From positions 186,001-250,000 of the forward strand of contig OW569395.1 in the NCBI GenBank assembly GCA_937625935.1: DNA of 64,000 nt, in the 5' to 3' direction. A program made the position numbers and the translations under genes. Position 1 is the first letter of the stretch. The number at the start of each line of letters is the position of its first letter. The notes under the pieces were generated by a model, which ran no database searches, was not told the DNA's origin, and saw only the letters and a program-made list of their open reading frames with translations. Source of the stretch: Tetramitus jugosus (Eukaryota > Heterolobosea > Eutetramitea > Acrasida > Vahlkampfiidae). Of the stretch, positions 1,064 through 29,455 are shown piece after piece.

Positions 1064-4003
1064 TTATGGTGAAGCAGAGGTCGTGTCTTCGACAGTTTCC
1101 CCAGACCCAGATGAAGTTGATGAGATAATGTTGCTCACATCCTGCTCGGTCAATCCAGAAACATACATGACAGCACCTTCGAGACATGTCAAATAATAAA
1201 CCAACTCTGGCTTTTCTTCTCTCTCCTCTGGACTCATAAACTTGGCCATGAGAGCCAAGTTGGTATGAATAAAGGACAGTGAGGCTCTCGAAACAACATA
1301 CACTAACAGAGGGATCAGTTCATCAGCACCAAATGTGAAATCCTTATTCTTGAGTTCACACTGCGCCTTTGCAATCAGATGAATCTGCTTTGAACACACG
1401 TGCACACAGTGAAGCATATCACTAGGGACAGTGCAATAGGAAATACAGCTCAATATATCAATAGGAACGGCATATGGCTCCGTTATGGACTGAATCTCAT
1501 TCTGTTTCTCCAACAACTCGGCACTGATATCATCGCCATCATTGTTGATGGGCAGGAATCTCTGTGCAACACCCAACTGTTCAGCAGTCAAGCTTGCCAC
1601 CATTTTTTGCTGAGTGCAGAATTGATTGTTGTCATAGTCATTTCTTATTGACTCCACATGATCAATCTCGCTCGCAATCACACTTCCGAAAATAAAGTAA
1701 TGAACGAGGTACCGCAGAACTTTCAATGTTCTTGCATCACGTGCAATGCTCGATTTCTTGTTCAATGTTAATCCGTTCAACTTGTTGATATAGTTGACAA
1801 AGCTTGATGCATATTCCACGAGTTCTGCTGATGGAACACGATCGAATCCAACATTGTTCACTTCATTTACAAATGTTCGAATAGATTGACCCTCGGCACT
1901 TCTAACATCACCCACGATACAATTGAACTCGTCCTGCAACCGCGTTCTGTCCACATGTGCCAACACATCTTCAATGAACTCTGAACAATTATTTAAAATC
2001 TTTGGTTTCTCTCGAGGCACAACAGCTCCATTCACATTGCTTTGCTGACTATCGGTATCATCATTCGAATACTCAAACACGGGAAACTGGTCAACAATTC
2101 GCCTGAGTGCTCCTTGTTGCTCCCGTTTGGTTCTCGACTTTTTGTGCGCTCCACTGTTCTTTCTCGCAACTTGATACTCTCTCTCCAATCGCTTACTCTG
2201 AACTTCCAATTGCTTAATAATCATTCGTCGTTTCAATAGAGGCTTCCTCTGAACAATCAATTGATCCACATTCAAAAAATAACTCGTCTTTTCCTCAATC
2301 AAATAACTCGGTAGAATCGTCTTGTAATCTTCACTGCTACTACCACCATTGCTATTGCTTGAATAATTTTTGAGAATATCCAGTGCTTGAATCGTATCAT
2401 TCAATCGATCCCTCAACATTTGTTTGACCAATCGTTCCATTCTAGCCTTTCTCTGCAGTTCCATGATGCGAGAAATGTAGTAGCTTCGAAACACTCGAAT
2501 CACACCATTCAATCGACACGATTTCAAATAATTTAATTCTCTATAAATAAACAATCGTTCGACTTGTTCCTTATTCTTCAATTCTCTGATTGTGTATTTG
2601 CAGTCCTTTAGATTTTGATTCAATCGCTGTTCATATTTTGTCAATTCTTGAATCCATTGATACAGTGTATGTGGTTGATTATTGTTACTGTTATTATTAC
2701 TACTATTATTACTACTATTACTATTATTGTTACTATTATTGTTATTACTATTATTACCATGAAGATTATTGCTACTGTTATTGTTGCTATTGTTGTTATT
2801 AGTGAAAAGTCTCTGTAATAGACTCTTCTTTTCTACATGATTGGTTGTTGTGCTGCTCACTGGTGTCGTTGGAGTCGTTGTGTCTACTACTGGATCAATA
2901 GTTGTTGTGCCACTTGTTGATACTGTTACATTATGACTACCACTACTACTACCATTACTGCTACTACCACTACTGTTCGTATGGCTATTGTTATTACCAC
3001 CAAAGAGAGTGGAAAAGGAACGTGAGACAACATTGAATGCAGAGGGAGGTGCATTGGGTGAGGATGCAGCAGCAGCAACAACCGACTCTCCACTGTTGGA
3101 AAGCTTTCGAGGCGTAATCGACGTGGAAGACGAAGATGACGAAGAATCGACATCCAACTCTCTCATCTCCGGCATGTCTAATTCTCCTATTGTCATCGGA
3201 GCGGAGTTTTTACGACAGAGTGGGAGAGAATTGGCCTCTGTAGTTGGCGCCAAAAAATAAGAGTGATGAACGACTGTTGGCGCCAAAATACTTCCCTTAT
3301 TGCTGTTGTTGTAATTGTTGTTGTTGTTGTTCTGATGATTTTGTTCGTTACGAATGAATTGACGCATATGATTTCTGACATTTCTCTTTTGACGTCTTCT
3401 CGACTCATCCATCTCCTCCTCATCGTCATCTACAGTGTCACCACTCTCACTGAAATTTAAGAAAAAGGTTTGTTTCTCTTCTGACATGTTGGATTGAATT
3501 TCTTCGTCCCATGCAGAGTACATTTCAGTGATCCATGATGGCTTATTCGCATTGTTATTGTCATCATGATTATTGTTATTATTGTTATTATTATTATTAT
3601 TGGACGAGTGTTTTTCATGAAGAGCACGAGTTGTTGTTGCTGTGGTTGCATTATTCAGCTGCTGTTCATCATCGTCATTGTCCTCTGTTGTCAAATCATC
3701 ATTTTCTTCTTCTTCTTCTGCTTCGTCGTCTTCACTGTCACGTTCCACTTGCAAGTGTTGCAATGGTTCAATGTCTCTTTTGGAAAGTTTGAGGTGATGA
3801 CCATTTGAGCGCTTACGAGTCATGATACTAGTTGTTGCTGTGGTTGTGGTGAGCTTTTGTCCACCAACACTGCTGACGTGCTGAGGAGTTGCCGTGGAAA
3901 TGAGACTCTTTCGAAGAACGATATTCCGACTCCTACTACGACGTGGGGTGATGACTTCATCTGTTGCTTCTGTATGCTGTTGTTGTGGTTGTTGCTGCTC
4001 CAT
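1064..4003 (-). CDS. VPS9-domain protein, putative Rab5-family GEF
   Basis: 979 codons from ATG at 4003; the start lies in a clean context just before poly-Gln. Residues 1 to about 440 are low complexity, with acidic stretches and long Asn, Ser and Thr runs. Residues about 440-650 are helical and basic. Residues about 665-960 form a VPS9 domain: the hallmark GADELIPLLVYVV (near 890) is followed by the F(I)HTNLALMAKFM helix and a YYLTCLEGAVMYV end helix. VPS9 domains catalyse GDP/GTP exchange on Rab5/Rab21 GTPases, so a role in early endocytic or phagocytic traffic is inferred. The aspartate of the GADE motif, important for exchange, is present. No FYVE, RIN or ankyrin partner domain is visible. 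It is divergent from the gene at 4370, leaving about 370 bp for both promoters. Confidence 0.88.
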   Translation of the reverse strand: MEQQQPQQQHTEATDEVITPRRSRSRNIVLRKSLISTATPQHVSSVGGQKLTTTTATTSIMTRKRSNGHHLKLSKRDIEPLQHLQVERDSEDDEAEEEEENDDLTTEDNDDDEQQLNNATTATTTRALHEKHSSNNNNNNNNNNNHDDNNNANKPSWITEMYSAWDEEIQSNMSEEKQTFFLNFSESGDTVDDDEEEMDESRRRQKRNVRNHMRQFIRNEQNHQNNNNNNYNNSNKGSILAPTVVHHSYFLAPTTEANSLPLCRKNSAPMTIGELDMPEMRELDVDSSSSSSSTSITPRKLSNSGESVVAAAASSPNAPPSAFNVVSRSFSTLFGGNNNSHTNSSGSSSNGSSSGSHNVTVSTSGTTTIDPVVDTTTPTTPVSSTTTNHVEKKSLLQRLFTNNNNSNNNSSNNLHGNNSNNNNSNNNSNSSNNSSNNNSNNNQPHTLYQWIQELTKYEQRLNQNLKDCKYTIRELKNKEQVERLFIYRELNYLKSCRLNGVIRVFRSYYISRIMELQRKARMERLVKQMLRDRLNDTIQALDILKNYSSNSNGGSSSEDYKTILPSYLIEEKTSYFLNVDQLIVQRKPLLKRRMIIKQLEVQSKRLEREYQVARKNSGAHKKSRTKREQQGALRRIVDQFPVFEYSNDDTDSQQSNVNGAVVPREKPKILNNCSEFIEDVLAHVDRTRLQDEFNCIVGDVRSAEGQSIRTFVNEVNNVGFDRVPSAELVEYASSFVNYINKLNGLTLNKKSSIARDARTLKVLRYLVHYFIFGSVIASEIDHVESIRNDYDNNQFCTQQKMVASLTAEQLGVAQRFLPINNDGDDISAELLEKQNEIQSITEPYAVPIDILSCISYCTVPSDMLHCVHVCSKQIHLIAKAQCELKNKDFTFGADELIPLLVYVVSRASLSFIHTNLALMAKFMSPEEREEKPELVYYLTCLEGAVMYVSGLTEQDVSNIISSTSSGSGETVEDTTSASP

Positions 4004-5896: not shown

Positions 5897-8800
5897 ATGT
5901 CGTCAGCAGAAATCCCAGAGCAGGTTGCTAAGCTCATGAAAGAGACTGGTACTAACATTACCAACCCAAAGGATTTGGAAGCTCTCTCAAAAGTTTCAGT
6001 CAGACAATTGGCCAAGTTGTTTGATGAATTGGCTAAAAACTCAAGGGCTAGTAACCTGAACAAGAAATCGACTGCCGACATTTTCAGATCGTGGACCAAG
6101 GCTGTTGTCGAGCAATTCCATGAAGGAGGTGAAGAGCAAAAGAAGAGAGTCAAAACCAGTGCTGAAATGTACTTGGATCGACAAAACCAAATCTTGACCG
6201 ACAATGAGATGAAGGAAAGAAGAGAGGAGTTGGTGGAGATTGAAGGCAATATTGCCAAGGCCAATGCAGAGTTGGATAAATTAAAGGTGACACTTAAAGA
6301 ATCTGCTGCTAAGAATGACAAATCTGCAGTTGAACAAATCAAAAGAGACATGGAGGACTTGAAAACCTCGAAGCGTGGTGACATAGAAAAGAGTGACAAG
6401 AGAAAGGATGTCGCCTTTTATAAAACAATCTTCTATCATAAGAAGAGAGATAATCTCGTTAGAAAGTCTGATGATGACGACAAGGAGAGAGATGAAGATG
6501 GAAAAACAGAGAAGGAGTTTGTTGAAGATAGTTTGTTTCAAGATAAGTGGAACAATGCAGGAGGGGTAGATGAAACAACAGTTATTATGGAGATGAACCC
6601 TAGTGATTGTGTGGAGGAGGCAGAGAACAAATTCTTGAGATCATTCGGAACTGATATTCAAGGAACAAGTTCAAAAAGTGTTTCATCTTCATCTTTCAAG
6701 TGCCATAAGAAGGGAAAGAAACATCCTGTGGTGATACGCACAGTGCTCGAGCGAGTGGATGAAGAGGGAGTAACAAGAGCTACCATTACAGCTCGTTGTG
6801 CGGGAGAATTTGCTTCAAATGAAATCAAAGAGAACATTGAGCAGTCGATGGATTCGTTGAAAGAGGCAGAGGCAGCTGAGGCTGAGAAACGATATCAGTC
6901 TTATGATGATCGTACAGAGACAACCTCAAATATTCCTCTAGCGGGAACAAAAAGATTAGTGGATGCATGGGAAAGAATGATGCAATCTGTGGCTACAGAT
7001 AAAGCAATCTATCCGGTATACACCAGGGGCGGTCGAGAAAAGGGTCGATCAGTGATGCTCGGATCTGACTACAAGAAACATCCTGTAGTATTAAGGTCAG
7101 ATCTCAAGAATGATGGAGGAGTCTATTCACTCGATCTCTCATGCAAAACACCAGTCGGAGAAGAGGAAGAGGGAAAAGTCTTGATGGAGGCAGTTGAATC
7201 GGTTCTGTTTGAGACAGGATTTGAGTTTGTGAGCAAATTGAACCAATCATCTCTAGAGGTGATTGTTCCAGGCATTCCCGATGTAGACGATGCAGTGAAA
7301 AGATTAATCGATGGGGCAGGATCACAACCCGTTGGTGGAGATCATTCGACAAAAACAGGAGAATTACACTTCATATCGAAGAAGAACAAACGACATCCAG
7401 TCTTTATGAAAGCTGTGTTAGATGAAGACGACGACAGAGTAAAAATTCATCTTACACTTTGTGGTGATGACAAGGGGGTTGTTGACGAGATTGCCAAGGG
7501 TATGAAGGAGTCTGTTGAGAGAGAAGAAGATCCTGCCGAAAGGTTTGCAGATGAATGGGATTTGGCAGAGGAAAACGAGTCTCATAGAATCATAGATCTT
7601 AATTGTGAACAAAACGTGGACGAGGCAACTGAGAACTTTATTCAGAACACAGGCATACAGGTAGTTGGAGTTGTTCAACAAGAAAAGAACGATCGATTGA
7701 TTAACTTCTATGGAAAGAATGGAACCAAGAAGCACCCTGTATTGATGAGAGCTACAATTAAGAGAGACGAAGAAGGAGTCGTTGTGGCTGATCTGAAAGC
7801 GAGAGGTCCTAGTAAGAAAGAGATACGCGCTGATCTTGATTCCTTGAAAGAGTCCCTTGCTTCAAATGATCCTCTCGCACGTTTTGAGAGCGAGTTTGAG
7901 AATCTAGGAGAATCATCAACAAGGAAAGAGGACATTCAAATCCCTAGAGTTTCAACTCTCATCGATATGTTCGAGAAAATGGGAAAGGCTGCAGATTCCA
8001 AACCTTTTGTGAACAGGTCAGATAGAAAGTTAGGACATATCGGATTTATTGGAAAGAAGAACCCTGAACATCCGGTGTATATGAAGGGTAAAGCTGTTAA
8101 AATGGAGGATGGAAGTTACGTGGCCCAAGTGGAAACACGTTGTAATGAAGAGCATGCTCGCTGCGAGTTTTTGAACCGACTCAAAGAGGATCTCTTTGAT
8201 AACGATTGGAACAAATATGGAGCTGCCACAGAAAAAGCAAAGTCTGTTGAGATGTTGGCTGATAATATCGAAGACTCCATCAAACAATTATCAGATGCCA
8301 CTCAATCCCTTCCTACTTCAACAAGGGCAATAGGCAACAAGACTACTGTTTCAATCTACGGAAAGAGACAAGGAAAACATCCGATAATGATGAAAGCAGA
8401 GATTGAACAGAAATCTCCTGGAGTTTTTCACACAATTGTTAAGGCAAGATCGGACGACAATCAATTTAGAGATGAGATGACAAGTGATGTCGTCACACAA
8501 TTAGATCCCATCACTACGTTTGACAAAGTATGGGATGAAAATAAGGGATCTGAGAGAGCTGATGTTGTAAATCTCCCAAATGTTAGATCGCTTATTGAGG
8601 CATTTGAAAGATTAGGGAAAGCGGCTGACGTACCCGTAGCTAAAAGGCCTGGAAAAGTGGGTCAGTGTGCCTTCTTTGCAAAGAAGAATCATAAACACCC
8701 AGTGCTTATCAAAGCAAATGTCAGAGAAAATAACGATGGAACTTTTTCAACAGAGCTGTCTTCCAAATCTGAAGATCAACAACTACTTAAAGTATCTATT

Positions 8801-11800
8801 GACGAACTTCAAGACTCATTGTTCCAGAATGAGTGGCAGAGATTGGGAGAGGATTTAGAATCATTCAATCAAATTGAAATTTCTGGAGATAGTTTGGATG
8901 CGGCCATCAGAAAGGTTTCCAATGCTGCCGGTACCCTACCAGTCGGCAGTATTAAGACTGAAGGAGATAAACATATTGTGTCTTTTTATGGAAAGAACAA
9001 TGAAAAGAAACCAGTTTTGTTGAGGGCAGAGATCTCTTCTAATGGATCTGGAAGTTTTTTGGCTGTTGTTCAAGCACGAGCTGAAGATGAAGATGCGAGA
9101 GACGAGGTGTCTCTAGGCTTGAAGGAACTTCTAGAGAGAGGCGAGGATCCAGCGTCTGTGTTCCAAGATTCTTGGGATCAACTACATGCTCATCATCAAG
9201 AGTTGACTCCTTATGACTTGTATTCAAACGATCTCAACGCCGCAACGGACAAGCTAATTGACGATTTAAGCATCATACCCGCTGCTCCAGTGAACAGAGA
9301 CGGAGAAAAAAATTCAGTGGACTTCCATGGCAGAGATAGTGACAAACCTGTGTTGCTGAGAGCCCTCATTGATAAAGATGGAGATGGAAATGTTCAAGTT
9401 CAAGTGTCTGGTCGGTCTGAGAGTGCCGATGCTCTTTCTTTGTCTTTGAAGGACGTTCAAGAGATTTTAGAGAGCAAAGATCCCAACAACGTGTTCGAGA
9501 GACAGTGGGAGAGTCTAGGAGAGGATAAACAACATAGCAATCATATTCATTTCCCGAATGTGAAATCTCTGGTTGATGCTATGGAATCATTGATACATGC
9601 AGCAAACACAGATCCAATTAGGAGAAGGGAAGACAAAAAGAATGGCAAGTGTGCTTTCCTGAAAAAGACTCAGAAGCACCCTATCCTGATAAAGGCAAAA
9701 GTGAGCGAGAGAGAGCCATGTGAATTTGTTTGCACTCTTGAGGCAAGATCTGAACTCCCTCAAGAAGATATTCTTAAAGAGATAGATTCTCTGGGAGGAG
9801 AACTATTTAACAACGCTTGGGCAGAACTCGGAGAGGGCACGACACATAACAAGGTTGTTCCATTTGAAGGATTGGATATTGATAACATCTTAGAGATTTT
9901 GTCCAAGGAAACAACATTAACTCCAATTGGGGACCTAAGAAAGGGACACAAATCACTTAACTTGATTGGAAAGATGAACAAAAAACATCCGCTTCTACTG
10001 AAGGCTGACTTTACAAAGGATACGGACGGAAAGGTCATCTGTTGTTTAAGTTCTGTCTGCGACGACGAGTCAGAAAGATTAGAAGCAGTGGGAAGCATTG
10101 ACGATCTTCTTGAAAAGATCTCTAACCCACTCTTCCGAGCTGCTCTTGCAAAATCAAATCAATTCTCCAACCTCGGGATACCACACAAATCATCAGAACC
10201 AGAAATGATGACAAAGAAGGACGACGATATCGCTATTACTGTGATCAAGCATGCATTCAAGGATAATGCTGTGATAGAAATCGCTTGTAAACCGATAGAT
10301 CCTCTAGAAACAAAACTCGACTACACTAAGGTTTCGTTTGGTAATGAAGGAACAATTAGACCAGTGAAGCAGAGTACTACGAAGAATGGCACTGGATTCA
10401 ACACATTCGCAGAGATGGGAGGAGTTCCGGGAGATATTGAGGGAACGTTAGTCACACTAGCGACAACCAATCTGAACAGTGGAGAAAGTAAGAAGTCTAT
10501 AATACCTCTTGATATCATCACCATCACACCAGGTGACTTTGTTCGAGATTCGATTGTCAATTTTGACAAACGATGGGAGGAATTGGGGGAGAATTTTGAT
10601 AACGAGTATATTACTCAATTTGATTTCTCAACTAAGGATGATGTCAAGTCAGCTGTGCCCAAGACGATTGAATACTGTCCTCTGATGGCTATCAACAAAG
10701 ACGATAAGATTGATGGTGACAAGCACATTCTCAAATTTTCGGGTGCAGCTCCAAAGAGAGACGGTATTGATCCAAATGTCTTGATGCAATGCACCGTTTA
10801 CAAAGATCCAGAAGGAAATATTTCTTTGATGGCTGTTTGCCGTTCCGAGGATGAAGTTGCAAGAGTTGATATTCCTGAAGAATTAATCCAAAAATTACGA
10901 GTCAATAAGAGCAAACTAGAGAGTGATTTATTTAGAGATATCTTATCTCAACATCCAAAGATTGCCGAGCTAGGAGTTCCTCACAAAAGTTCTCCTGCAA
11001 TCCATTTACTCAGCAATATAGATTATAGAATAGCTGTTACGAAGCACTCGTATGCTGAACATGTCGTTCTTCAGTTTGATTATCAGAATCAAGCTTCTGT
11101 AAGCGAACTCAACAACATTTTGACAAAGTGCAAGGAGGGAAATCCATTTATTAATGATAGGGATGGTTTAATTTTCGAGAGAGCGATTAAGACCGGAGTA
11201 ACACCGACGGGATCAACCTCATACGGATTTATCAGGTTGAAGAAAGTGGAATCAAGTCATTTCGCAAGTGGGACTTTCTTAACGCACACAAAGTTTGAAA
11301 GCCAAAAGATGGACTCTGAAGTGACCCGTGCCGGAGAAATTGCAACAGTTGAGTTGGATTTGTCCCCTTTTAAGATGTATACAATGGATTATTTGGCAAA
11401 CAAACATGTTGATGATGTTGCTGAATTATTCAAGTCCCTCGAAAATGAGAGTTGCAAGAGGGCGATCAAACTCGAAAGACTCAGCTTTGAGGAAGTTAGA
11501 GATCGCGTTTTGAGAGCTGCTTGCTTGAATTTGGCTGATTATGAAGCCAAGGGTATTGGAGGATGCTTGAAGTTCTCAGGAGAATTAGTAGATGGTGAGC
11601 ATGTTCTATTAGAGGCCGTTGTAAGTCCATTGGATGAAGAGAGCTGCTTGATCGAGTTGACTGGAAGATCAACGGTTCCTCTTTTGAGAGAGAGCTTCCT
11701 GAGAGACGTGGAGGAGTTGATCAAGTGTCCCTTGGTTGTTGTTATTGAAGAAAAAGACAACAACGGACAAGAAGAATCAAGAAAAGGAAGGAAACCGTTG

Positions 11801-13642
11801 TTGGATTATAAGGTAGATCTAACATCTATCCCTGAACCCAAGTGGTTGAAACCAAGGTTTAATGTCTTGAAGTATGATCCGAAAAAGAAGTGGTCATCCA
11901 AAGCAAAAAGAGTCTGGGAGTTGGATTTCTTTGGAGGTCAATTCAAGAACATGGATACAAAGGGTGTAATCAAGAAGTGTCCCGAGCCAGCAAAATTGTA
12001 TCACTTGGAGAGAACACCATCTGATGCCACTCGTGTGAGAATGAACTTCTTCGAAAGTTCTCACAAGTATGAGTTGGTCTTTGACAATAATTTCCAGAGA
12101 GAACGTTTCTATGAATGTGCCCACGCTTTGAGGCCAACTTTCTATGTTTGGTGTCCAAATATATGTGCTCCAGGAGAAACTCGATGCAGAGCTGAAATAT
12201 CAGGGTCTTTCAACTTTGATTCTTTAGGTGTTCAACAAAAAGTTACCGGTACTTGTCACATCAATGTGACCTCAAAGCCTTACGAAACAATTTCAGTGTG
12301 GTGCGGAACTTGGAATATGGGAGGTACTACCCCACCAAAGGATCCCCGATTGATGAGAAAGTATATTCCTGCTAATAAGCATGATATTTACGCCATTGCT
12401 GTTCAAGATTCCGGTTACTCCAAGGATAGAAATGCCTTTATTGGATATCTGCAAGGAATTCTGGGAAAGTCAGAATATGTTGTGTTGACTTTCTTGACCT
12501 TGTGGGATATTCAACTCTGTATTGCTGTTCGAAAGCGTCACTTCACAAAGATTACAAATGTTCAAAGCGAGCAACGACCAACACAAATCACGAGTGCCGG
12601 TACCAAGGGTGGCGTGGGAGTGTCACTGACCTTCAACGAAACAAGTTTCTGTTTTATCTCTTCCCACTTGGTTCCTAACAGCTCTGACGACACACCGAAC
12701 AGATTCACGGATAACTCAAAGACCAGAAACCTCATGATTGAAGATATTCTAGGAAATTTGAAGCTGGGCAACAAATCTCTGGATATCAATGGACAATTTC
12801 ATCATGTCTTCCTGTTAGGAGACTTGAACTATCGCATTGAAATGCCTGCTGAAGAAGCTCTCCCATTGATATCCTCTGGTCAATATGATCAGTTGATCGA
12901 AAAGGATGAGTTGAGACAAGAAATGTCTTCTGGAAAGGTTCTTTGCGGTTTTAAGGAAGCTGATATCAAGTTCCAGCCTACATTTAAATTTGAGAAGGCA
13001 ACAATCACTTATGAAACCAAGAAACCAATTACTCCATCCTACTGCGATAGAATTTTATGGAAGAGTATGGCGAACAACACAGTGACCTGTGTGGACTATA
13101 AGGCTTGCACTGACTTGCTTGTGAGTGACCATCTTCCAGTGTCTGCTGTTTTCAAGATCAATACCATTCGTCCTTATGCTAGCACATTTGCCAAGGAACA
13201 AGAAACCTGCCAAATCATATTCGATAGTATTAAGGTTAAGCATAGAGAAGCCACCAAGGAGAACCAAATCAACAAACCAACACTGTCTTTTTATGCACCA
13301 TTCATTGACGACAATATCGTTGTGACCACCAAACAACCGAAGACTTACAACCCAGAGTTCTTGGCTTCTATGATTCCAATAATTGAACCATCGACAGGTC
13401 AGAAGGATTTCCTTAAATTGCAACATCTTGTTATTGCTCTAACCGATGGTCTTTCCAAAGACAACACTGACAATCTCCAAGGTACAGCTCTCTTGCCACT
13501 CAAGAATGGTTTGGATTCAACCAACAACGTCACAGTCACATTGGATCTTGTTAGGTTTGGAAAGAAGGTTGGAGATGTTGAGGTCACCTACAAGTATGTT
13601 TTCCGTCAAAAACAACAATCCAATGACGGTTCACTTTTCTAA
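5897..13642 (+). CDS. Gamma-COP appendage array fused to inositol polyphosphate 5-phosphatase
   Basis: A single intronless 2581-residue ORF from ATG 5897. Residues 1-190 are helical and charged. Then come 11 tandem copies of a domain of about 103-119 residues. Each has an FxxxW-L opening, an amphipathic helix, an (H/K)PV(L)(L)(K/R)A strand and an alternating terminal strand; the anchor residues are 276, 395, 500, 613, 725, 828, 934, 1038, 1150, 1261 and 1364. Two further copies (anchors about 1625 and 1901) each follow a beta-sandwich segment starting F(R)xxL...LG(I/V)PHKSS (about 1413 and 1679). Sandwich plus platform, with that FR...LG...KSS opening, is the layout of the gamma-COP appendage. 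Residues about 1970-2085 look PH-like. The 5-phosphatase spans about 2130-2415 (GTWNMGG, GDLNYRI about 2308, PSYCDRILW about 2380, SDHLPV about 2410). A C2-like tail follows. The usual QE metal-binding pair reads QD. A cytoplasmic PI(3,4,5)P3/PI(4,5)P2 phosphatase on coats or membranes is inferred. Confidence 0.85.
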   Translation: MSSAEIPEQVAKLMKETGTNITNPKDLEALSKVSVRQLAKLFDELAKNSRASNLNKKSTADIFRSWTKAVVEQFHEGGEEQKKRVKTSAEMYLDRQNQILTDNEMKERREELVEIEGNIAKANAELDKLKVTLKESAAKNDKSAVEQIKRDMEDLKTSKRGDIEKSDKRKDVAFYKTIFYHKKRDNLVRKSDDDDKERDEDGKTEKEFVEDSLFQDKWNNAGGVDETTVIMEMNPSDCVEEAENKFLRSFGTDIQGTSSKSVSSSSFKCHKKGKKHPVVIRTVLERVDEEGVTRATITARCAGEFASNEIKENIEQSMDSLKEAEAAEAEKRYQSYDDRTETTSNIPLAGTKRLVDAWERMMQSVATDKAIYPVYTRGGREKGRSVMLGSDYKKHPVVLRSDLKNDGGVYSLDLSCKTPVGEEEEGKVLMEAVESVLFETGFEFVSKLNQSSLEVIVPGIPDVDDAVKRLIDGAGSQPVGGDHSTKTGELHFISKKNKRHPVFMKAVLDEDDDRVKIHLTLCGDDKGVVDEIAKGMKESVEREEDPAERFADEWDLAEENESHRIIDLNCEQNVDEATENFIQNTGIQVVGVVQQEKNDRLINFYGKNGTKKHPVLMRATIKRDEEGVVVADLKARGPSKKEIRADLDSLKESLASNDPLARFESEFENLGESSTRKEDIQIPRVSTLIDMFEKMGKAADSKPFVNRSDRKLGHIGFIGKKNPEHPVYMKGKAVKMEDGSYVAQVETRCNEEHARCEFLNRLKEDLFDNDWNKYGAATEKAKSVEMLADNIEDSIKQLSDATQSLPTSTRAIGNKTTVSIYGKRQGKHPIMMKAEIEQKSPGVFHTIVKARSDDNQFRDEMTSDVVTQLDPITTFDKVWDENKGSERADVVNLPNVRSLIEAFERLGKAADVPVAKRPGKVGQCAFFAKKNHKHPVLIKANVRENNDGTFSTELSSKSEDQQLLKVSIDELQDSLFQNEWQRLGEDLESFNQIEISGDSLDAAIRKVSNAAGTLPVGSIKTEGDKHIVSFYGKNNEKKPVLLRAEISSNGSGSFLAVVQARAEDEDARDEVSLGLKELLERGEDPASVFQDSWDQLHAHHQELTPYDLYSNDLNAATDKLIDDLSIIPAAPVNRDGEKNSVDFHGRDSDKPVLLRALIDKDGDGNVQVQVSGRSESADALSLSLKDVQEILESKDPNNVFERQWESLGEDKQHSNHIHFPNVKSLVDAMESLIHAANTDPIRRREDKKNGKCAFLKKTQKHPILIKAKVSEREPCEFVCTLEARSELPQEDILKEIDSLGGELFNNAWAELGEGTTHNKVVPFEGLDIDNILEILSKETTLTPIGDLRKGHKSLNLIGKMNKKHPLLLKADFTKDTDGKVICCLSSVCDDESERLEAVGSIDDLLEKISNPLFRAALAKSNQFSNLGIPHKSSEPEMMTKKDDDIAITVIKHAFKDNAVIEIACKPIDPLETKLDYTKVSFGNEGTIRPVKQSTTKNGTGFNTFAEMGGVPGDIEGTLVTLATTNLNSGESKKSIIPLDIITITPGDFVRDSIVNFDKRWEELGENFDNEYITQFDFSTKDDVKSAVPKTIEYCPLMAINKDDKIDGDKHILKFSGAAPKRDGIDPNVLMQCTVYKDPEGNISLMAVCRSEDEVARVDIPEELIQKLRVNKSKLESDLFRDILSQHPKIAELGVPHKSSPAIHLLSNIDYRIAVTKHSYAEHVVLQFDYQNQASVSELNNILTKCKEGNPFINDRDGLIFERAIKTGVTPTGSTSYGFIRLKKVESSHFASGTFLTHTKFESQKMDSEVTRAGEIATVELDLSPFKMYTMDYLANKHVDDVAELFKSLENESCKRAIKLERLSFEEVRDRVLRAACLNLADYEAKGIGGCLKFSGELVDGEHVLLEAVVSPLDEESCLIELTGRSTVPLLRESFLRDVEELIKCPLVVVIEEKDNNGQEESRKGRKPLLDYKVDLTSIPEPKWLKPRFNVLKYDPKKKWSSKAKRVWELDFFGGQFKNMDTKGVIKKCPEPAKLYHLERTPSDATRVRMNFFESSHKYELVFDNNFQRERFYECAHALRPTFYVWCPNICAPGETRCRAEISGSFNFDSLGVQQKVTGTCHINVTSKPYETISVWCGTWNMGGTTPPKDPRLMRKYIPANKHDIYAIAVQDSGYSKDRNAFIGYLQGILGKSEYVVLTFLTLWDIQLCIAVRKRHFTKITNVQSEQRPTQITSAGTKGGVGVSLTFNETSFCFISSHLVPNSSDDTPNRFTDNSKTRNLMIEDILGNLKLGNKSLDINGQFHHVFLLGDLNYRIEMPAEEALPLISSGQYDQLIEKDELRQEMSSGKVLCGFKEADIKFQPTFKFEKATITYETKKPITPSYCDRILWKSMANNTVTCVDYKACTDLLVSDHLPVSAVFKINTIRPYASTFAKEQETCQIIFDSIKVKHREATKENQINKPTLSFYAPFIDDNIVVTTKQPKTYNPEFLASMIPIIEPSTGQKDFLKLQHLVIALTDGLSKDNTDNLQGTALLPLKNGLDSTNNVTVTLDLVRFGKKVGDVEVTYKYVFRQKQQSNDGSLF

Positions 13643-22859: not shown

Positions 22860-23062
22860 CTTCTTGGTGTTGGCTCTCAGTTTCAACCATGTGAGTCGGC
22901 TCGTGATTGGAGCGCAATGAAAAACAACGGTTGTAGTGGAAGCAGCGGAGAAACTGTTTCAAAAGACGACCGGACAATGTTACGCGTGTGCTTTGGTGAT
23001 GATTTCTTCAATCCCAGTCATCGTCGATCGCCACCTCCTAATTTTTGCTTTCTTCACATATT

Positions 23063-26000
23063 ATGGAAATCAAAAAAAATTCTGTTCCACAATCGCAACA
23101 ACAACTGAGAGAGAAACATTTTAATAACATGCAATCATCACAACAACAAAATGAACCATCACCATCACCATCACCACCATCTCCTCCTCCTCCTCACTTG
23201 TTTCTCATCCATTCGATTCATCAATTGATGATCATGATGAAGAGTAGCTATCCTCATTTTTTTTATCCATTTTATACACCATCATCACAATCATCACAAT
23301 CACAACAACCTCGATCAACAACAACAACACAATCATCAGTCTCATCACCATCCATCATTGTGGACAATATGAATAACAATGATTCATCATCATCAAAAGA
23401 TCATCGATTGATTCATCAATTGAATCAATTACGTGATTCTTTAATTTCATCAACATCAACAACAACTCATAACAATAGTAGTGGTGGTAATAAGAATAAT
23501 AGTGTGCCAATGGTCAATGTATTGTATCCATTTATGAACATGATTACAAGTGATGAACTCAATTGTTCCATTACTGCATGTGCACTTGATATTCTCATTC
23601 AATGTATTCAATGGTATCATCCACAACAACAACAATACACTGCTACTACTACTAGTACTACTACTACCTGTGAAATTCACAATAATAGTAATGGAATGAT
23701 TGTGAATCACATGAATGAAATATTGAATTGTGTGTTGAATGTTCAATTGGAATTATCACCTCACTCTACATGGTCACTCTTATCATTATCTACTCTGAAT
23801 CACACTACTACTACTACCAGTGCTGCTGATATTCAACAACAACAACAACAACAATACTATCATTATCATCACGACTATTGTGCAGCATTGATTAAAATTG
23901 TTCAATCATTGGAATACATTGTACAACAATTCCATACTCATCTCAATCATGAAACAATTGTACAAGTGATTCAATCCATGATTCAAATCAGTCATCACTC
24001 CTTTTCTCAACAACAAATGAGAGTAAACAAGAATAATAACAGTAGTCAACATCATCATCATCATCATCAGTTTGAATGGGTAAAGTATGCATGTGATCAT
24101 TCCATACAATCTCTCATGTATCATCTCTTTTCATCAACTACTGCTTCTGCTATGAATAATAATAATAAGAATGATGATAATTGGTTACAATTATTGTATA
24201 CATTGATGAAACACATGATTGAATTATCGGATCCAAATGTATCTGGTGTTCACATGAGTATTCGTCTCTCTGCTCTCCACTATTGTCTCTTGCTCTTTCA
24301 ATTCTATTCTACTACTGCTAATTCTGCTACTGCTGCTGCTGTCCATGATACAAATGATGAAATAGTGATAAAGATGAGACAATTGATCAAGAATGAATAC
24401 AGTAGATGTCTATTGAGAAATGCAAATGTATTGTTCAATGATTTCTATCATCAAGACAAGTATCATCACATTCAATCACTAAAGTATCACCAGTATGCTT
24501 ATGCCTATCGACCCTCTTCTACTCTTTCATCATCACATTATCAACAACAACAGTCAGCATCCTATATGAATGATCACAACAATAATAATAGTAGTAGTAG
24601 TAGTCGAAGCAATAACATGAGAACATTGACTGGTCACTATCAACAACAACAACAACAACAACAATATTCATCACATGTGACTTCTGCTTCCTCTCATTTG
24701 AACAACAACAATAATACTCGTTCATCTCCACTCTCTTCATCACCACTCTCATCATCACCATCATCACTTTCATTCAATAACGACAATGATCACATGTATT
24801 CCTATCCTCCTCCTCCTCCTCCTCATCAACAACAACAACAACAACAACAGAATATCAATAATAATAATAACAACAGTAGTAATTATCATCATCATTATCT
24901 GAATATGAATATGAATAATAATCCATATCACACTCAACAATCATCACTCTTTTATTTGAATCTATTGTTGAGGAATATGACTTGTGTCATGACACTCATG
25001 GATCACTCGTATCAGAACATTAAGGTTGAATTTCTCACTGTTCTCTTTTATCGTATTCTCAATCCAAAACTCAATCATTTGGTGGTGAATACTACATCAC
25101 CTACTACTACCTCAACTACTACTACCAGTGGTAATAAGACCAATAGTAGTAACAACAATCATTTCCAGAATTTTGAAATGATGGAACTCGTGTTGGAACA
25201 TGTGATTGAACTGTGTCGCAACAAGCAATTTCTCACAGAAATTTATCTGTACAATGATTGTGTGATTGATCGAAGAGACGTGTTTGCTCAATTGTGTCAC
25301 TTGTTGGTCCATGTGCTCAGAGAATCACCATCCGATCTCTATCATATTCATTCATTGGCCATGACTGCCATTCTCAACATGATCAAATGCTTTAGCAGTA
25401 GCAGTAGTAGTAGTAGTAGCAGTAGTGATAAGAGTAATAAGACGGATAGTCATAGTAGTAGTAGTGGTAGTGATAACATGATGATGATGAACATGAGTCA
25501 TAATCACAAGTGGAGAGACATGAAAAAAATGAAGCAAATGTCTATTCAATTTGCACTCGATTTGAATGCCAGTGTCAAGAATGGTCTCAATGCTCTCTGT
25601 CAATTCTACATGTCTCAAATCATGTTTTATCAAAAGACGCGAAAAGTATCATCATCATCATTATCACCCACTAGTACGACCACCACTACATCTACATCTA
25701 TGATTACATTCCTCAACATACCAGACGAGTACATGGACTTGATTGCTCAGCACATTGCCACCTTTCTCCATGAATTCTCCTACTGGCTCGACAAGGAAAT
25801 GATTTTCAATGTGTTGAAACGAGAGGAGCCACTGTGTCTCAAGATTATGCAATTCTACATGAGCATGTTCGATATGAGAGGCATGCGAGTAGATGATGCA
25901 CTGAGACTCGTTGTCTGGCAAGTCAAACTCAACGGTGAAGGACAGCAGATTACACGTGTGTTGCAAGAATTTGGCACAGCGTACTATAAGCAAAATAGTG

Positions 26001-29000
26001 ATCTCACCATTTTGGACAATGAAGAAGAGTGTTGGGCGTTGGCTGTGGCAGTGTTGATGCTGCAAACTGATTTGCACAACATGAGAAACTTTAATCGACG
26101 AATGACCATGGATCAATGGCTCACCAACACATCATACATTAACAATGGTCGATTGAACGAAGAGGAGATGAAACAAATTTATCACTGTGTGGCATCGTGT
26201 GAGTTTGTTTCGAGTGCCAATGTGCCGTTTGCTGCCTTTATGAGTGAACCAGTGTGGAGCGAGTTGGTGAATCAAGATTTGATTCATCATCCGCTCTCTA
26301 CACTGTTGCCATCATCAGCATCATCATTCTTTAGCACTGCCATGCTTCTCGATGCCTCTCAAGTGACAACTCAATCGCCATTGATCACTATCACTCCTCA
26401 ACACAACAACAAGAACAACAACAAGAATAGTAGTCATAGTTCTGATCTGAGAGAGATTCAAGAGGAGAAGCAATGGATGAGTCATTTGGGTCTCGATGTC
26501 GAAATGTTTAGTGCCATGTGGTCCGGTACTCTCCTATCCACGTGCATTGTGTTGGAGAATGCCATTGACACGGATTTGTTGGAGATGAGCATACGTGGAT
26601 TTTTGGACTCTGCCAAAATTGCGGCTCACTATCACTTGACACCCATTTTTGATAATTTGGTCACTACGCTCACAAAGTACTCTTCCATTGTCGCAAACAG
26701 TGCCAGTCATGCACCACACGATACTCAAAGTAGTCATTATGACCATTCATCCCATTTGCGCAAGCAACATCGTGCATCCTCTGACTCGTCGTCTTACAAT
26801 GATGATGATCAGTCATCTGCATCGATCCCTCTCTATGACACGATAGCATTGACTGATCCAATGACATTGGTGCTGAGTCTCATGAACAGTGGTGCTAATG
26901 AGAATGATGATAATGAGAATGATATGGGTGGCTCATCACCCTTACTACAGAGTGATCACCCATTCCTCACTGCATACAGTCGTAGTGTCAGTGGTGATGC
27001 TGCTGATTCAACTGTTCATAACACGAGCAACAACAGCAACAACCATCTTGTCAAGTCTACAAACAAGAGAAGAAAGAGAAGAAGAAGAAGATCTCAGCCT
27101 AGCTATGTCGATTCTGGTAGTCATGAAGCACAACGCAGAAGAAGAGAGTATCAAATGATGGCCTCCAAGTTTGGAGCGGACGACAAGGCACAGATTGCGT
27201 GTCGAACTGTGTTTGCCATCACGAGAAACTATGGTGATAACTTGAGAGAGGGATGGAGAGACATTGTGCGCATGATTCGTCAAATGTTCAACCTCAGGAT
27301 CATACCAAAGATTTTGCTCGAGTTGATCAACAAGGAAGAAAACTCGTACGCGAGACGTATTGAGAATGAGAAGAACACTTCACCAAACACTCGCTCCAAC
27401 AGCTATTTGTTTGGTTTCTTTGGCAACTCATCCGACAATGAAGAGATGTTTGAGAAGGAAGCAATCGAGAAGGCCAAAAAGTGTATTCTTCAATGCAGAA
27501 TCGATGAATTGTTGCTATCAGTTCACGTGCTCACTCATCACAGTCTCGATTATTTGATTCGAGAGCTCGTTCAATACTTTTTGAACGTGTCAATCGATTC
27601 GACCATCAACAGCAGCAGTGCAAGTGGCAACACGATGATTGATCTCATTCTCAAGGATCAAGACACTGCTGTTGACAATGAACAACAGAGACTCATGAGA
27701 AGCATTGGCAGTGATAGTGATCTCAATAGCAGCAGCACAAGTGAGGACGATCATCACGATGAAGATGACGATGATGAAGATGAGGACTTGTATCCTTCAG
27801 TGTACTCTGATCTCGATCTCTTCACATGGGATCTACTGTCATTTGTGTGTCTGAAGAATGTGGAACAGGGCATTGCATTTGAACAGAATGTGCGAGTGGA
27901 AACTGCCTTGAGCAATGTGGGCAAATTGATTGTCAAGTGCAACGGTCGACACACACCTGACATTATGCTGCACCAATGTCTCAAGATGCTCCTCAAGTTG
28001 ACTGGTATCATTGTTGTGCGATCATCCAAGTGCATTCAACAACAACGAGAACAGAAAGAAGAAGATAATCTAGAACAGCAGCAGCAGCAACAACAAATTC
28101 AAAAACAATTGCTCAAATACCTCAGATTCTGCTTCTACTTGGTGTCTATGCTCTTGAAGAGACTTGCTGAATCACCAAATGCCATTCCTGATGACTGTTA
28201 TCATCTATTGGCAACCAGTTTGAACAAGCTATATCAGAGCAATGATGTTCGATTGATTGATTTGGTCAACACTCATGCTCCCACTCTCAATCAATACCAT
28301 GACATGCTCGCCTGCGTGTTTGTTCACTTGTTACAACCAAGACAGCAAATCATTGGTCAGTGCCCAAGTTACTTTTCTCTGTTGATCAGTCTCACTGTCA
28401 ACGAATGCTATAGTGTTCAACCTGTTCATCTCAGCATCCTCGTCTCATGCATCAGCAACTATGGCGTCAAGATTATGGAGCATGATGTTGATACGTTGAG
28501 TCAAGTCACTGTTATGATTGAACGCGTGCACAAGTGGTGCCATTCCGTACCCAAAGAGCGACTTCAGGGCCCATGGCTCGATGCCTATATTCTCACGTTG
28601 CAGAGTCTCAGTATTCTTTCTGCACGAGGATGTAAGACTCTCAGAAACGTCTCATTGAACACACTGCAGCGAATTCTGGTGTCTTTGGTCGATGCCTACC
28701 CGTCAAGCTCATCTGCCTCTGCTCAGCAACAACAACAACAGCATCAACAACAACAATTGCTCATGATTGTCATTCATCGATGTTTGTTTACTCTGTTGGA
28801 TGAACTGCTGAGTGCTCTGGAGAGAAAGTTGGCTCAGAGACAAAAGAGAGGAGGATTCTTCTCATCAGTCACATCCTCTGCATCATCCTCTGATGATCAC
28901 TTGCTACAATCAGTGAGTTCAATTGGCAGTGGACAATTGGTGCTATCGATTCAACACTCCAATGCCAACATTGATTTGGCCAGCTTGGAGGAAGTTCAAT

Positions 29001-29455
29001 TCCGAGCATGTCATTTGTTGGCCAAAATCTTCTTGCACTATTTGCCTCTGGTGTATCACTTGCAACAATTTGATGCACTGTGGGGTCGCGTTCTTTCCTA
29101 TATGGCTCGTTATTTGAGTCTGGGCAGTGAATTATTGTTGGAAGCAATTCCTGAACTGATCAAGAATATGGTGCTTGTGATGAACAATCATCGAGTATTC
29201 AGACAGAGACCACACCTGTGGAGTTATGTGTTGCGTGAATTGGAAGAAATGATCCCAGATCTGTTGCAGGAACTAGGTCAAAAGATTTATGACGATGAAC
29301 AACAATTCTTGCAAGAACAATTGAGATTACAACAACAGCAACAAGCAACATCCCTGCCGCAGCAAGAACCCACTGCCAATGAAGCTTCTTCTATCGAAAC
29401 TCAAGTCCAAGAGCTCGCAATTGGAGATGCCCCAACTGTAGACGCTCAACAATAA
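23063..29455 (+). CDS. Sec7-domain Arf GEF, large GBF1/BIG class
   Basis: The first ATG is 23063 (about 2130 residues); ATG 23129 is an alternative start. A Sec7 domain lies at about residues 880-1060: an IAQHIATFLHEFSYWLDKE opening, a VDDALRLVVWQVKLNGEGQQI segment with the catalytic glutamic finger Glu in LNGEGQ (about 956), and a MLQTDLHN hydrophobic groove helix. The region before it has large Asn, Gln, His and Ser inserts within helical DCB/HUS-like sequence. The region after it is long and helical, like HDS repeats, and ends in poly-Gln. Total size and a central Sec7 domain fit the large Arf GEFs that activate Arf1 at the Golgi. Those GEFs drive recruitment of COPI, whose gamma subunit carries the appendage seen repeated in the protein at 5897. 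Which large class it belongs to is unresolved. Confidence 0.85.
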   Translation: MEIKKNSVPQSQQQLREKHFNNMQSSQQQNEPSPSPSPPSPPPPHLFLIHSIHQLMIMMKSSYPHFFYPFYTPSSQSSQSQQPRSTTTTQSSVSSPSIIVDNMNNNDSSSSKDHRLIHQLNQLRDSLISSTSTTTHNNSSGGNKNNSVPMVNVLYPFMNMITSDELNCSITACALDILIQCIQWYHPQQQQYTATTTSTTTTCEIHNNSNGMIVNHMNEILNCVLNVQLELSPHSTWSLLSLSTLNHTTTTTSAADIQQQQQQQYYHYHHDYCAALIKIVQSLEYIVQQFHTHLNHETIVQVIQSMIQISHHSFSQQQMRVNKNNNSSQHHHHHHQFEWVKYACDHSIQSLMYHLFSSTTASAMNNNNKNDDNWLQLLYTLMKHMIELSDPNVSGVHMSIRLSALHYCLLLFQFYSTTANSATAAAVHDTNDEIVIKMRQLIKNEYSRCLLRNANVLFNDFYHQDKYHHIQSLKYHQYAYAYRPSSTLSSSHYQQQQSASYMNDHNNNNSSSSSRSNNMRTLTGHYQQQQQQQQYSSHVTSASSHLNNNNNTRSSPLSSSPLSSSPSSLSFNNDNDHMYSYPPPPPPHQQQQQQQQNINNNNNNSSNYHHHYLNMNMNNNPYHTQQSSLFYLNLLLRNMTCVMTLMDHSYQNIKVEFLTVLFYRILNPKLNHLVVNTTSPTTTSTTTTSGNKTNSSNNNHFQNFEMMELVLEHVIELCRNKQFLTEIYLYNDCVIDRRDVFAQLCHLLVHVLRESPSDLYHIHSLAMTAILNMIKCFSSSSSSSSSSSDKSNKTDSHSSSSGSDNMMMMNMSHNHKWRDMKKMKQMSIQFALDLNASVKNGLNALCQFYMSQIMFYQKTRKVSSSSLSPTSTTTTTSTSMITFLNIPDEYMDLIAQHIATFLHEFSYWLDKEMIFNVLKREEPLCLKIMQFYMSMFDMRGMRVDDALRLVVWQVKLNGEGQQITRVLQEFGTAYYKQNSDLTILDNEEECWALAVAVLMLQTDLHNMRNFNRRMTMDQWLTNTSYINNGRLNEEEMKQIYHCVASCEFVSSANVPFAAFMSEPVWSELVNQDLIHHPLSTLLPSSASSFFSTAMLLDASQVTTQSPLITITPQHNNKNNNKNSSHSSDLREIQEEKQWMSHLGLDVEMFSAMWSGTLLSTCIVLENAIDTDLLEMSIRGFLDSAKIAAHYHLTPIFDNLVTTLTKYSSIVANSASHAPHDTQSSHYDHSSHLRKQHRASSDSSSYNDDDQSSASIPLYDTIALTDPMTLVLSLMNSGANENDDNENDMGGSSPLLQSDHPFLTAYSRSVSGDAADSTVHNTSNNSNNHLVKSTNKRRKRRRRRSQPSYVDSGSHEAQRRRREYQMMASKFGADDKAQIACRTVFAITRNYGDNLREGWRDIVRMIRQMFNLRIIPKILLELINKEENSYARRIENEKNTSPNTRSNSYLFGFFGNSSDNEEMFEKEAIEKAKKCILQCRIDELLLSVHVLTHHSLDYLIRELVQYFLNVSIDSTINSSSASGNTMIDLILKDQDTAVDNEQQRLMRSIGSDSDLNSSSTSEDDHHDEDDDDEDEDLYPSVYSDLDLFTWDLLSFVCLKNVEQGIAFEQNVRVETALSNVGKLIVKCNGRHTPDIMLHQCLKMLLKLTGIIVVRSSKCIQQQREQKEEDNLEQQQQQQQIQKQLLKYLRFCFYLVSMLLKRLAESPNAIPDDCYHLLATSLNKLYQSNDVRLIDLVNTHAPTLNQYHDMLACVFVHLLQPRQQIIGQCPSYFSLLISLTVNECYSVQPVHLSILVSCISNYGVKIMEHDVDTLSQVTVMIERVHKWCHSVPKERLQGPWLDAYILTLQSLSILSARGCKTLRNVSLNTLQRILVSLVDAYPSSSSASAQQQQQQHQQQQLLMIVIHRCLFTLLDELLSALERKLAQRQKRGGFFSSVTSSASSSDDHLLQSVSSIGSGQLVLSIQHSNANIDLASLEEVQFRACHLLAKIFLHYLPLVYHLQQFDALWGRVLSYMARYLSLGSELLLEAIPELIKNMVLVMNNHRVFRQRPHLWSYVLRELEEMIPDLLQELGQKIYDDEQQFLQEQLRLQQQQQATSLPQQEPTANEASSIETQVQELAIGDAPTVDAQQ

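Follow-up and report, generated by a model that had tools for sequence, protein, structure and literature searches.

Gamma-COP-type appendages amplified outside a coat and joined to a SHIP-like inositol 5-phosphatase in Tetramitus jugosus

Coat appendages are known as hubs that occur singly, each capping a coat subunit. A gene of the heterolobosean Tetramitus jugosus raises the question of what such domains do once they are amplified, mostly deprived of their sandwich half, freed from the coat trunk and placed in a lipid phosphatase. The gene lies in a stretch of 64,000 nucleotides, here termed the window (assembly GCA_937625935.1, contig OW569395.1, positions 186,001 to 250,000 of the forward strand), and encodes 2581 amino acids in a single open reading frame that contains no stop and requires no intron. 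Its predicted domain order is an N-terminal domain, a coiled coil, 11 free gamma-COP-type platforms, two full gamma-COP-type appendages, a PH-like domain, a 5-phosphatase and a C2-like region. An earlier reading, made from the sequence only, had recognized the platforms, the two sandwich-platform pairs and the phosphatase, but it had omitted the N-terminal domain, the predicted coiled coil, the PH-like domain and the C2-like region, and it had placed the gene start at 6500. We corrected the start to 5897, a codon backed by alignment to the N-terminus of a paralog from the same genome.

Assignment of the repeats rests on several lines of evidence. In a Pfam domain search of the window protein, with matches inspected up to E 1, the gamma-COP platform model PF16381 matched nine stretches (E 7.9e-77; 255 bits for the whole protein against a cut-off of 31.2) and the beta2-appendage model PF09066 matched one (E 2.9e-12). 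A platform profile built from 10 units outside the window (profile A; gamma-COP, the paralog and a metagenomic relative, P0002) detected 12 of the 13 window platforms, missing unit 2, while a stricter profile built from four own-genome units (profile B; gamma-COP and the paralog) detected 10, missing units 1, 2 and 5 and covering unit 13 only partly. When the whole protein was shuffled 200 times, profiles A and B gave three and two domain matches in total, respectively. The 11 tandem units proposed earlier were recovered at a spacing of 101-119 amino acids. Two pairs follow the array, FRAALAKSNQFSNLGIPHKSS with platform 12 and then FRDILSQHPKIAELGVPHKSS with platform 13, ahead of the 5-phosphatase; as previously described, both sandwiches open with FRxxL...LG(I/V)PHKSS and each is succeeded by a platform. 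The gamma-COP sandwich model PF08752 matched two stretches (E 3.3e-20; 73.2 bits against a cut-off of 25), and structure comparison returned the gamma-COP appendage fold, with 1r4x and 1pzd as best matches. Pfam, the platform tree and the fold matches support the gamma-COP identity claimed by the sequence-only reading. The adaptin trunk (PF01602), present in the gamma-COP of the same genome, did not match the window protein up to E 1, and because of this absence the protein is, judged by its domain content, not a coatomer subunit.

The fusion to the phosphatase, also claimed in the earlier reading, is contained in one frame and recurs with the same junction in the independent relative P0002, a JGI metagenome protein of 1511 amino acids with a cut N-terminus. 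P0002 comprises three free platforms, two appendages, the PH-like domain and the phosphatase, and shares 48% identity with the window protein over 1532 columns, from window residue 1079 to near the C-terminus. We regard it as barely credible that two neighboring genes or a misassembly were read as one: against this artefact stand the open frame of 7.7 kb, the junction in P0002 and an N-terminal domain common to an array-only paralog and to array-less phosphatases. Every P0002 platform has its highest identity to the window platform of the same number, and the platform tree pairs the two proteins for units 9-13 (100/100, 91/78, 95/94, 97/98 and 93/90), so that unit order is kept for five comparable units in two diverged proteins. 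From this pairing we conclude that the comparable units already stood in the array before the two lineages diverged. In a whole-appendage tree, pair 1 agrees (100/100), while window pair 2 is weakly misplaced (67/53). The platform tree, from which the AP beta row was omitted, further groups units 2, 5, 7 and 10, together with P0002 unit 10, as a subtype (88/88), which suggests that the array grew partly by blocks.

Three database proteins with the source labels jgi and lgn (P0006, cut at its start, P0007 and P0008) place this fusion in context. They carry the N-terminal domain, a disordered or coiled linker, the PH-like domain PF25404 and the 5-phosphatase PF22669, and none of the appendage models matches any of them at E 1 or better. 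In the PH-like/phosphatase tree they group with the window protein and P0002 (99/97); the next relative, P0009, shows no N-terminal domain by eye. Most likely, then, the array entered the linker of an older enzyme with the order N-terminal domain, PH, 5-phosphatase and C2. As the tree does not settle the branching order inside the clade, one insertion in the ancestor of the window protein and P0002 is the simplest reading and not a proven one, and array loss in P0006-P0008 is a possible alternative.

The genome itself fits a heterolobosean host: its enolase and SAH hydrolase have outlying best PDB matches in 7ugh (420 bits, the next at 289) and 5v96 (810 bits, with 6uk3 at 806 and the next at 675), and 7ugh and 5v96 are Naegleria fowleri proteins. 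We also searched the own genome (26.3 Mb, 56 contigs) for further appendage genes. PF16381 gave 13 matches on four genes, of which seven fall on the window gene, one on the gamma-COP with adaptin trunk (C5), one, below the cut-off, on an AP beta subunit (C13) and four on the paralog (C2, L015:1221-5285). In its 1354 amino acids, the paralog combines the same N-terminal domain as the window protein with four stretches each of sandwich and platform; a fifth platform, divergent, is probable by eye, and a phosphatase is lacking. A JGI metagenome contains a copy of the paralog at 99% identity. Residues 1-52 of the window protein, the N-terminal domain, have no credible match to any known family, and in the genome the domain is confined to the window gene and the paralog, other matches lying at E about 0.5. 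PF25404 occurs in the window gene only. Five 5-phosphatase genes, the window gene included, exceed the cut-off. ArfGAP gave 12 matches, 11 of them over the cut-off, and the second propeller of alpha/beta'-COP gave two; these genes are possible COPI-side partners. One ArfGAP locus (C10, L041:274-2091) combines in one frame a protein kinase (PF00069, 4.7e-32) and an ArfGAP (PF01412, 3.3e-27), a kinase-ArfGAP fusion whose kinase we take, by eye, to be NAK/AAK1-like.

The enzymatic part is SHIP-like. PF22669 matched with E 9.2e-54 and 183 bits, and SHIP2 and SHIP1 are the best solved relatives (SHIP2 at 1.4e-48). The SHIP C2 model PF24147 is not reached at E 1 in the window protein, lies below the cut-off in P0002 and passes in P0008, P0009 and P0010; a search of the window protein up to E 1 returned no SH2 domain. 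We compared eight catalytic motifs across 20 aligned proteins; the window protein is usual in six of them and P0002 in every one. Among the array-less relatives, P0006 has Q in place of the glutamate of the QE motif, and P0007 lacks that glutamate as well as the SDH histidine and is possibly inactive, though it otherwise matches PF22669 strongly.

From these parts we infer membrane placement, partner capture and coupling to 5-phosphate removal. The PH-like and C2 regions would place the enzyme on a phosphoinositide membrane, where both full appendages, together with those array platforms that are intact, would recognize coat-accessory and Arf-cycle proteins by short motifs or surfaces, much like the gamma-COP ear, and the coiled coil may contribute self-association. 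Partners would thereby be concentrated where the protein takes the 5-phosphate off PI(4,5)P2 or PI(3,4,5)P3, and lipid turnover would be tied to the assembly or the release of coats. This hub mechanism is our leading proposal, to which we give slightly less than an even chance; the likelihoods that we attach to it, to a mainly spacer role and to a plasma-membrane or endocytic role overlap in part. A broader version, which we hold with more reserve, envisages multi-ear scaffolds that work independently of a coat and form a family of two, amplified from the gamma-COP appendage and with one member inserted into a 5-phosphatase. Such a scaffold would be a multivalent hub that can be tuned, possibly resembling a condensate or serving as a tether; it would capture coat-accessory and ArfGAP-like partners and link the turnover of Arf to that of phosphoinositides in cis.

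The FxxxW motif of the platform pocket bears directly on partner capture. AP2 binds ligands through this motif, and an overexpressed gamma-COP appendage affects ARFGAP2 localization in a manner dependent on it (PMC2262067). Within the COPI coat, gamma-COP contacts beta'-COP through the base of its sandwich, and its platform is accessible to partners, ArfGAP among them (PMC5482573). The motif tryptophan, a site singled out by the sequence-only reading, is present in nine of the 13 window platforms, namely eight of the 11 free ones and platform 12; units 3 and 5 have phenylalanine, unit 2 shows no clear motif and unit 13 has no such motif.

Several observations weigh against the hub. Platform 13 has lost the tryptophan, and P0002 has W, F, I, W and W in units 9-13, so that the residue is common to both proteins in only two of five comparable units (9 and 12). 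In the platform tree, the free platforms stand apart (98/96) from a set of nine rows comprising gamma-COP, platforms 12-13 of the window protein and P0002, and paralog units C2-C5; this set includes unit C3, which lacks a sandwich of its own, whereas the divergent, long-branched paralog unit C1 falls with the remaining rows. The free platforms may thus have ligands other than those of gamma-COP, or none. A crude look for Glo3-type ISS motifs revealed nothing convincing, the ArfGAP frame being recovered at only five of the 12 loci. On the enzyme side, the window protein has Q-D for Q-E (residue 2171), where 17 of the 20 aligned proteins have E, and GTKG for GNKG (T at residue 2236), where 19 have N. 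The affected residues would have roles in metal binding and head-group contact. In yeast, Glo3p was not shifted by overexpressed gamma- or beta-COP appendage and no direct binding between Glo3p and the beta-COP appendage was seen (PMC2262067), so ArfGAP binding is not universal. Given these binding results and the turnover of the pocket tryptophan, the array may be a docking array only in part, and the earlier idea of multivalent docking may hold for some platforms but not necessarily for all of them.

The free platforms could instead form mainly a structural rod that holds the two full appendages, which with perhaps a few platforms would do the docking, far from the membrane-bound phosphatase. 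In a model of platforms 9-11, the last helix of one unit enters the first helix of the next or ends no more than three residues from it. All 11 free platforms and P0002 units 9-11 carry an H/K/D-P turn followed by V/I/L that platforms 12-13, gamma-COP and the paralog do not show at the equivalent position and that is possibly a contact between units. The near-continuous helices, this turn, the separate position in the tree and the tryptophan turnover all favor a rod, yet FxxxW in eight of 11 free platforms exceeds the needs of a spacer, and at a pTM of 0.45 the unit-to-unit orientation is unsure; we consider a mainly spacer role rather unlikely. We find it improbable that the phosphatase is weak or inactive in this species, leaving a scaffold only: its two altered motifs and the changes in P0006 and P0007 point that way, but the other six motifs are kept and P0002 is usual in all eight. 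Activity of the window phosphatase is accordingly expected and plausible from its motifs but not secure, and it may be reduced.

A SHIP-like regulator of signaling or endocytosis at the plasma membrane, for instance in macropinocytosis or phagocytosis, would have its appendages bind clathrin or endocytic factors in place of COPI. Its kinship to SHIP2 and SHIP1 and its PH-like domain fit this role, and endocytic proteins, synaptojanin among them, are ligands of AP2 appendages. The appendages are, however, of gamma-COP and not AP2 type by PF08752, PF16381 and the 1r4x and 1pzd matches, which makes such a role unlikely in our view, and nothing in the analysis links the protein to phagocytosis, as had been suggested initially.

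Returning to the hub, if the units bind partners, the protein would be a natural multivalent system in which to examine how avidity acts in coat recruitment, and it would connect coat factors directly, in cis, to phosphoinositide turnover. The component domains are already known. Among the matches listed from open-licence literature, we found no description of an amplified, mostly sandwich-less array outside any coat or of such an insertion. All features are compiled in Table 1. The AlphaFold model of residues 1-214 has a mean pLDDT of 70.2 and a pTM of 0.36. The window also encodes two trafficking proteins, a VPS9-domain protein (1064-4003, minus strand) and a GBF1-like Sec7 protein (23045-29455, plus strand), a proximity that may be chance.

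Table 1. Features of the appendage-phosphatase gene, in window coordinates.
Feature	Position	Strand	Residues	Basis
Whole gene	5897..13642	+		Single open reading frame
N-terminal helical domain	5897..6052	+	1-52	Common to paralog, P0006 (cut at start), P0007, P0008
Predicted long helical hairpin / coiled coil	6062..6496	+	56-200	AlphaFold model
Array of 11 tandem sandwich-less gamma-COP-type platforms	6527..10084	+	214-1396	Pfam, platform profiles, unit alignment; units 9-11 modelled
Unit starts, free platforms 1-11	6536, 6893, 7208, 7544, 7883, 8195, 8519, 8822, 9161, 9494, 9806	+	214, 333, 438, 550, 663, 767, 875, 976, 1089, 1200, 1304	
Appendage sandwich 1	10133..10540	+	1413-1548	PF08752; alignment
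Platform 12 (with sandwich 1)	10553..10906	+		PF16381 best stretch 1546-1655
Appendage sandwich 2	10931..11392	+	1679-1832	PF08752 best stretch 1681-1809; fold match to 1r4x
Platform 13, FxxxW degenerate (with sandwich 2)	11408..11731	+		Platform comparison, profiles, fold match
PH-like domain (PF25404)	11810..12205	+	1972-2103	Pfam, E 2.1e-34
SHIP-like inositol 5-phosphatase (PF22669)	12305..13147	+		Pfam, PDB matches, motif comparison
C2-like region (approximate bounds)	13169..13621	+		SHIP2 alignment continuing to chain residue 450

Compared with known systems, the protein departs from each in a different way. Gamma-COP (COPG) has one appendage on an adaptin trunk, whereas the window protein has 13 platforms, two sandwiches, no trunk and an enzyme. 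Its catalytic domain and the following C2-like region align to SHIP2 structures, but unlike SHIP1 and SHIP2 (INPP5D/INPPL1) it lacks SH2 and has PF25404, the appendage array and two changed conserved residues. P0006-P0008 share its N-terminal domain (cut in P0006), PF25404 and PF22669 and have a disordered or coiled linker where it has the array. BBSome subunits with appendage-like domains lie far below the gamma-COP match, and we know of no tandem appendage array in them. Synaptojanin and OCRL are 5-phosphatases recruited to clathrin coats via short motifs that bind appendages in trans, and the AP2 ear with synaptojanin peptides (1w80) is among our fold matches. The window protein would act alike, as a 5-phosphatase tied to coat appendages, but it carries the appendages in cis, by analogy a reversal of the layout in which the phosphatase bears the motifs for the appendage of a coat.
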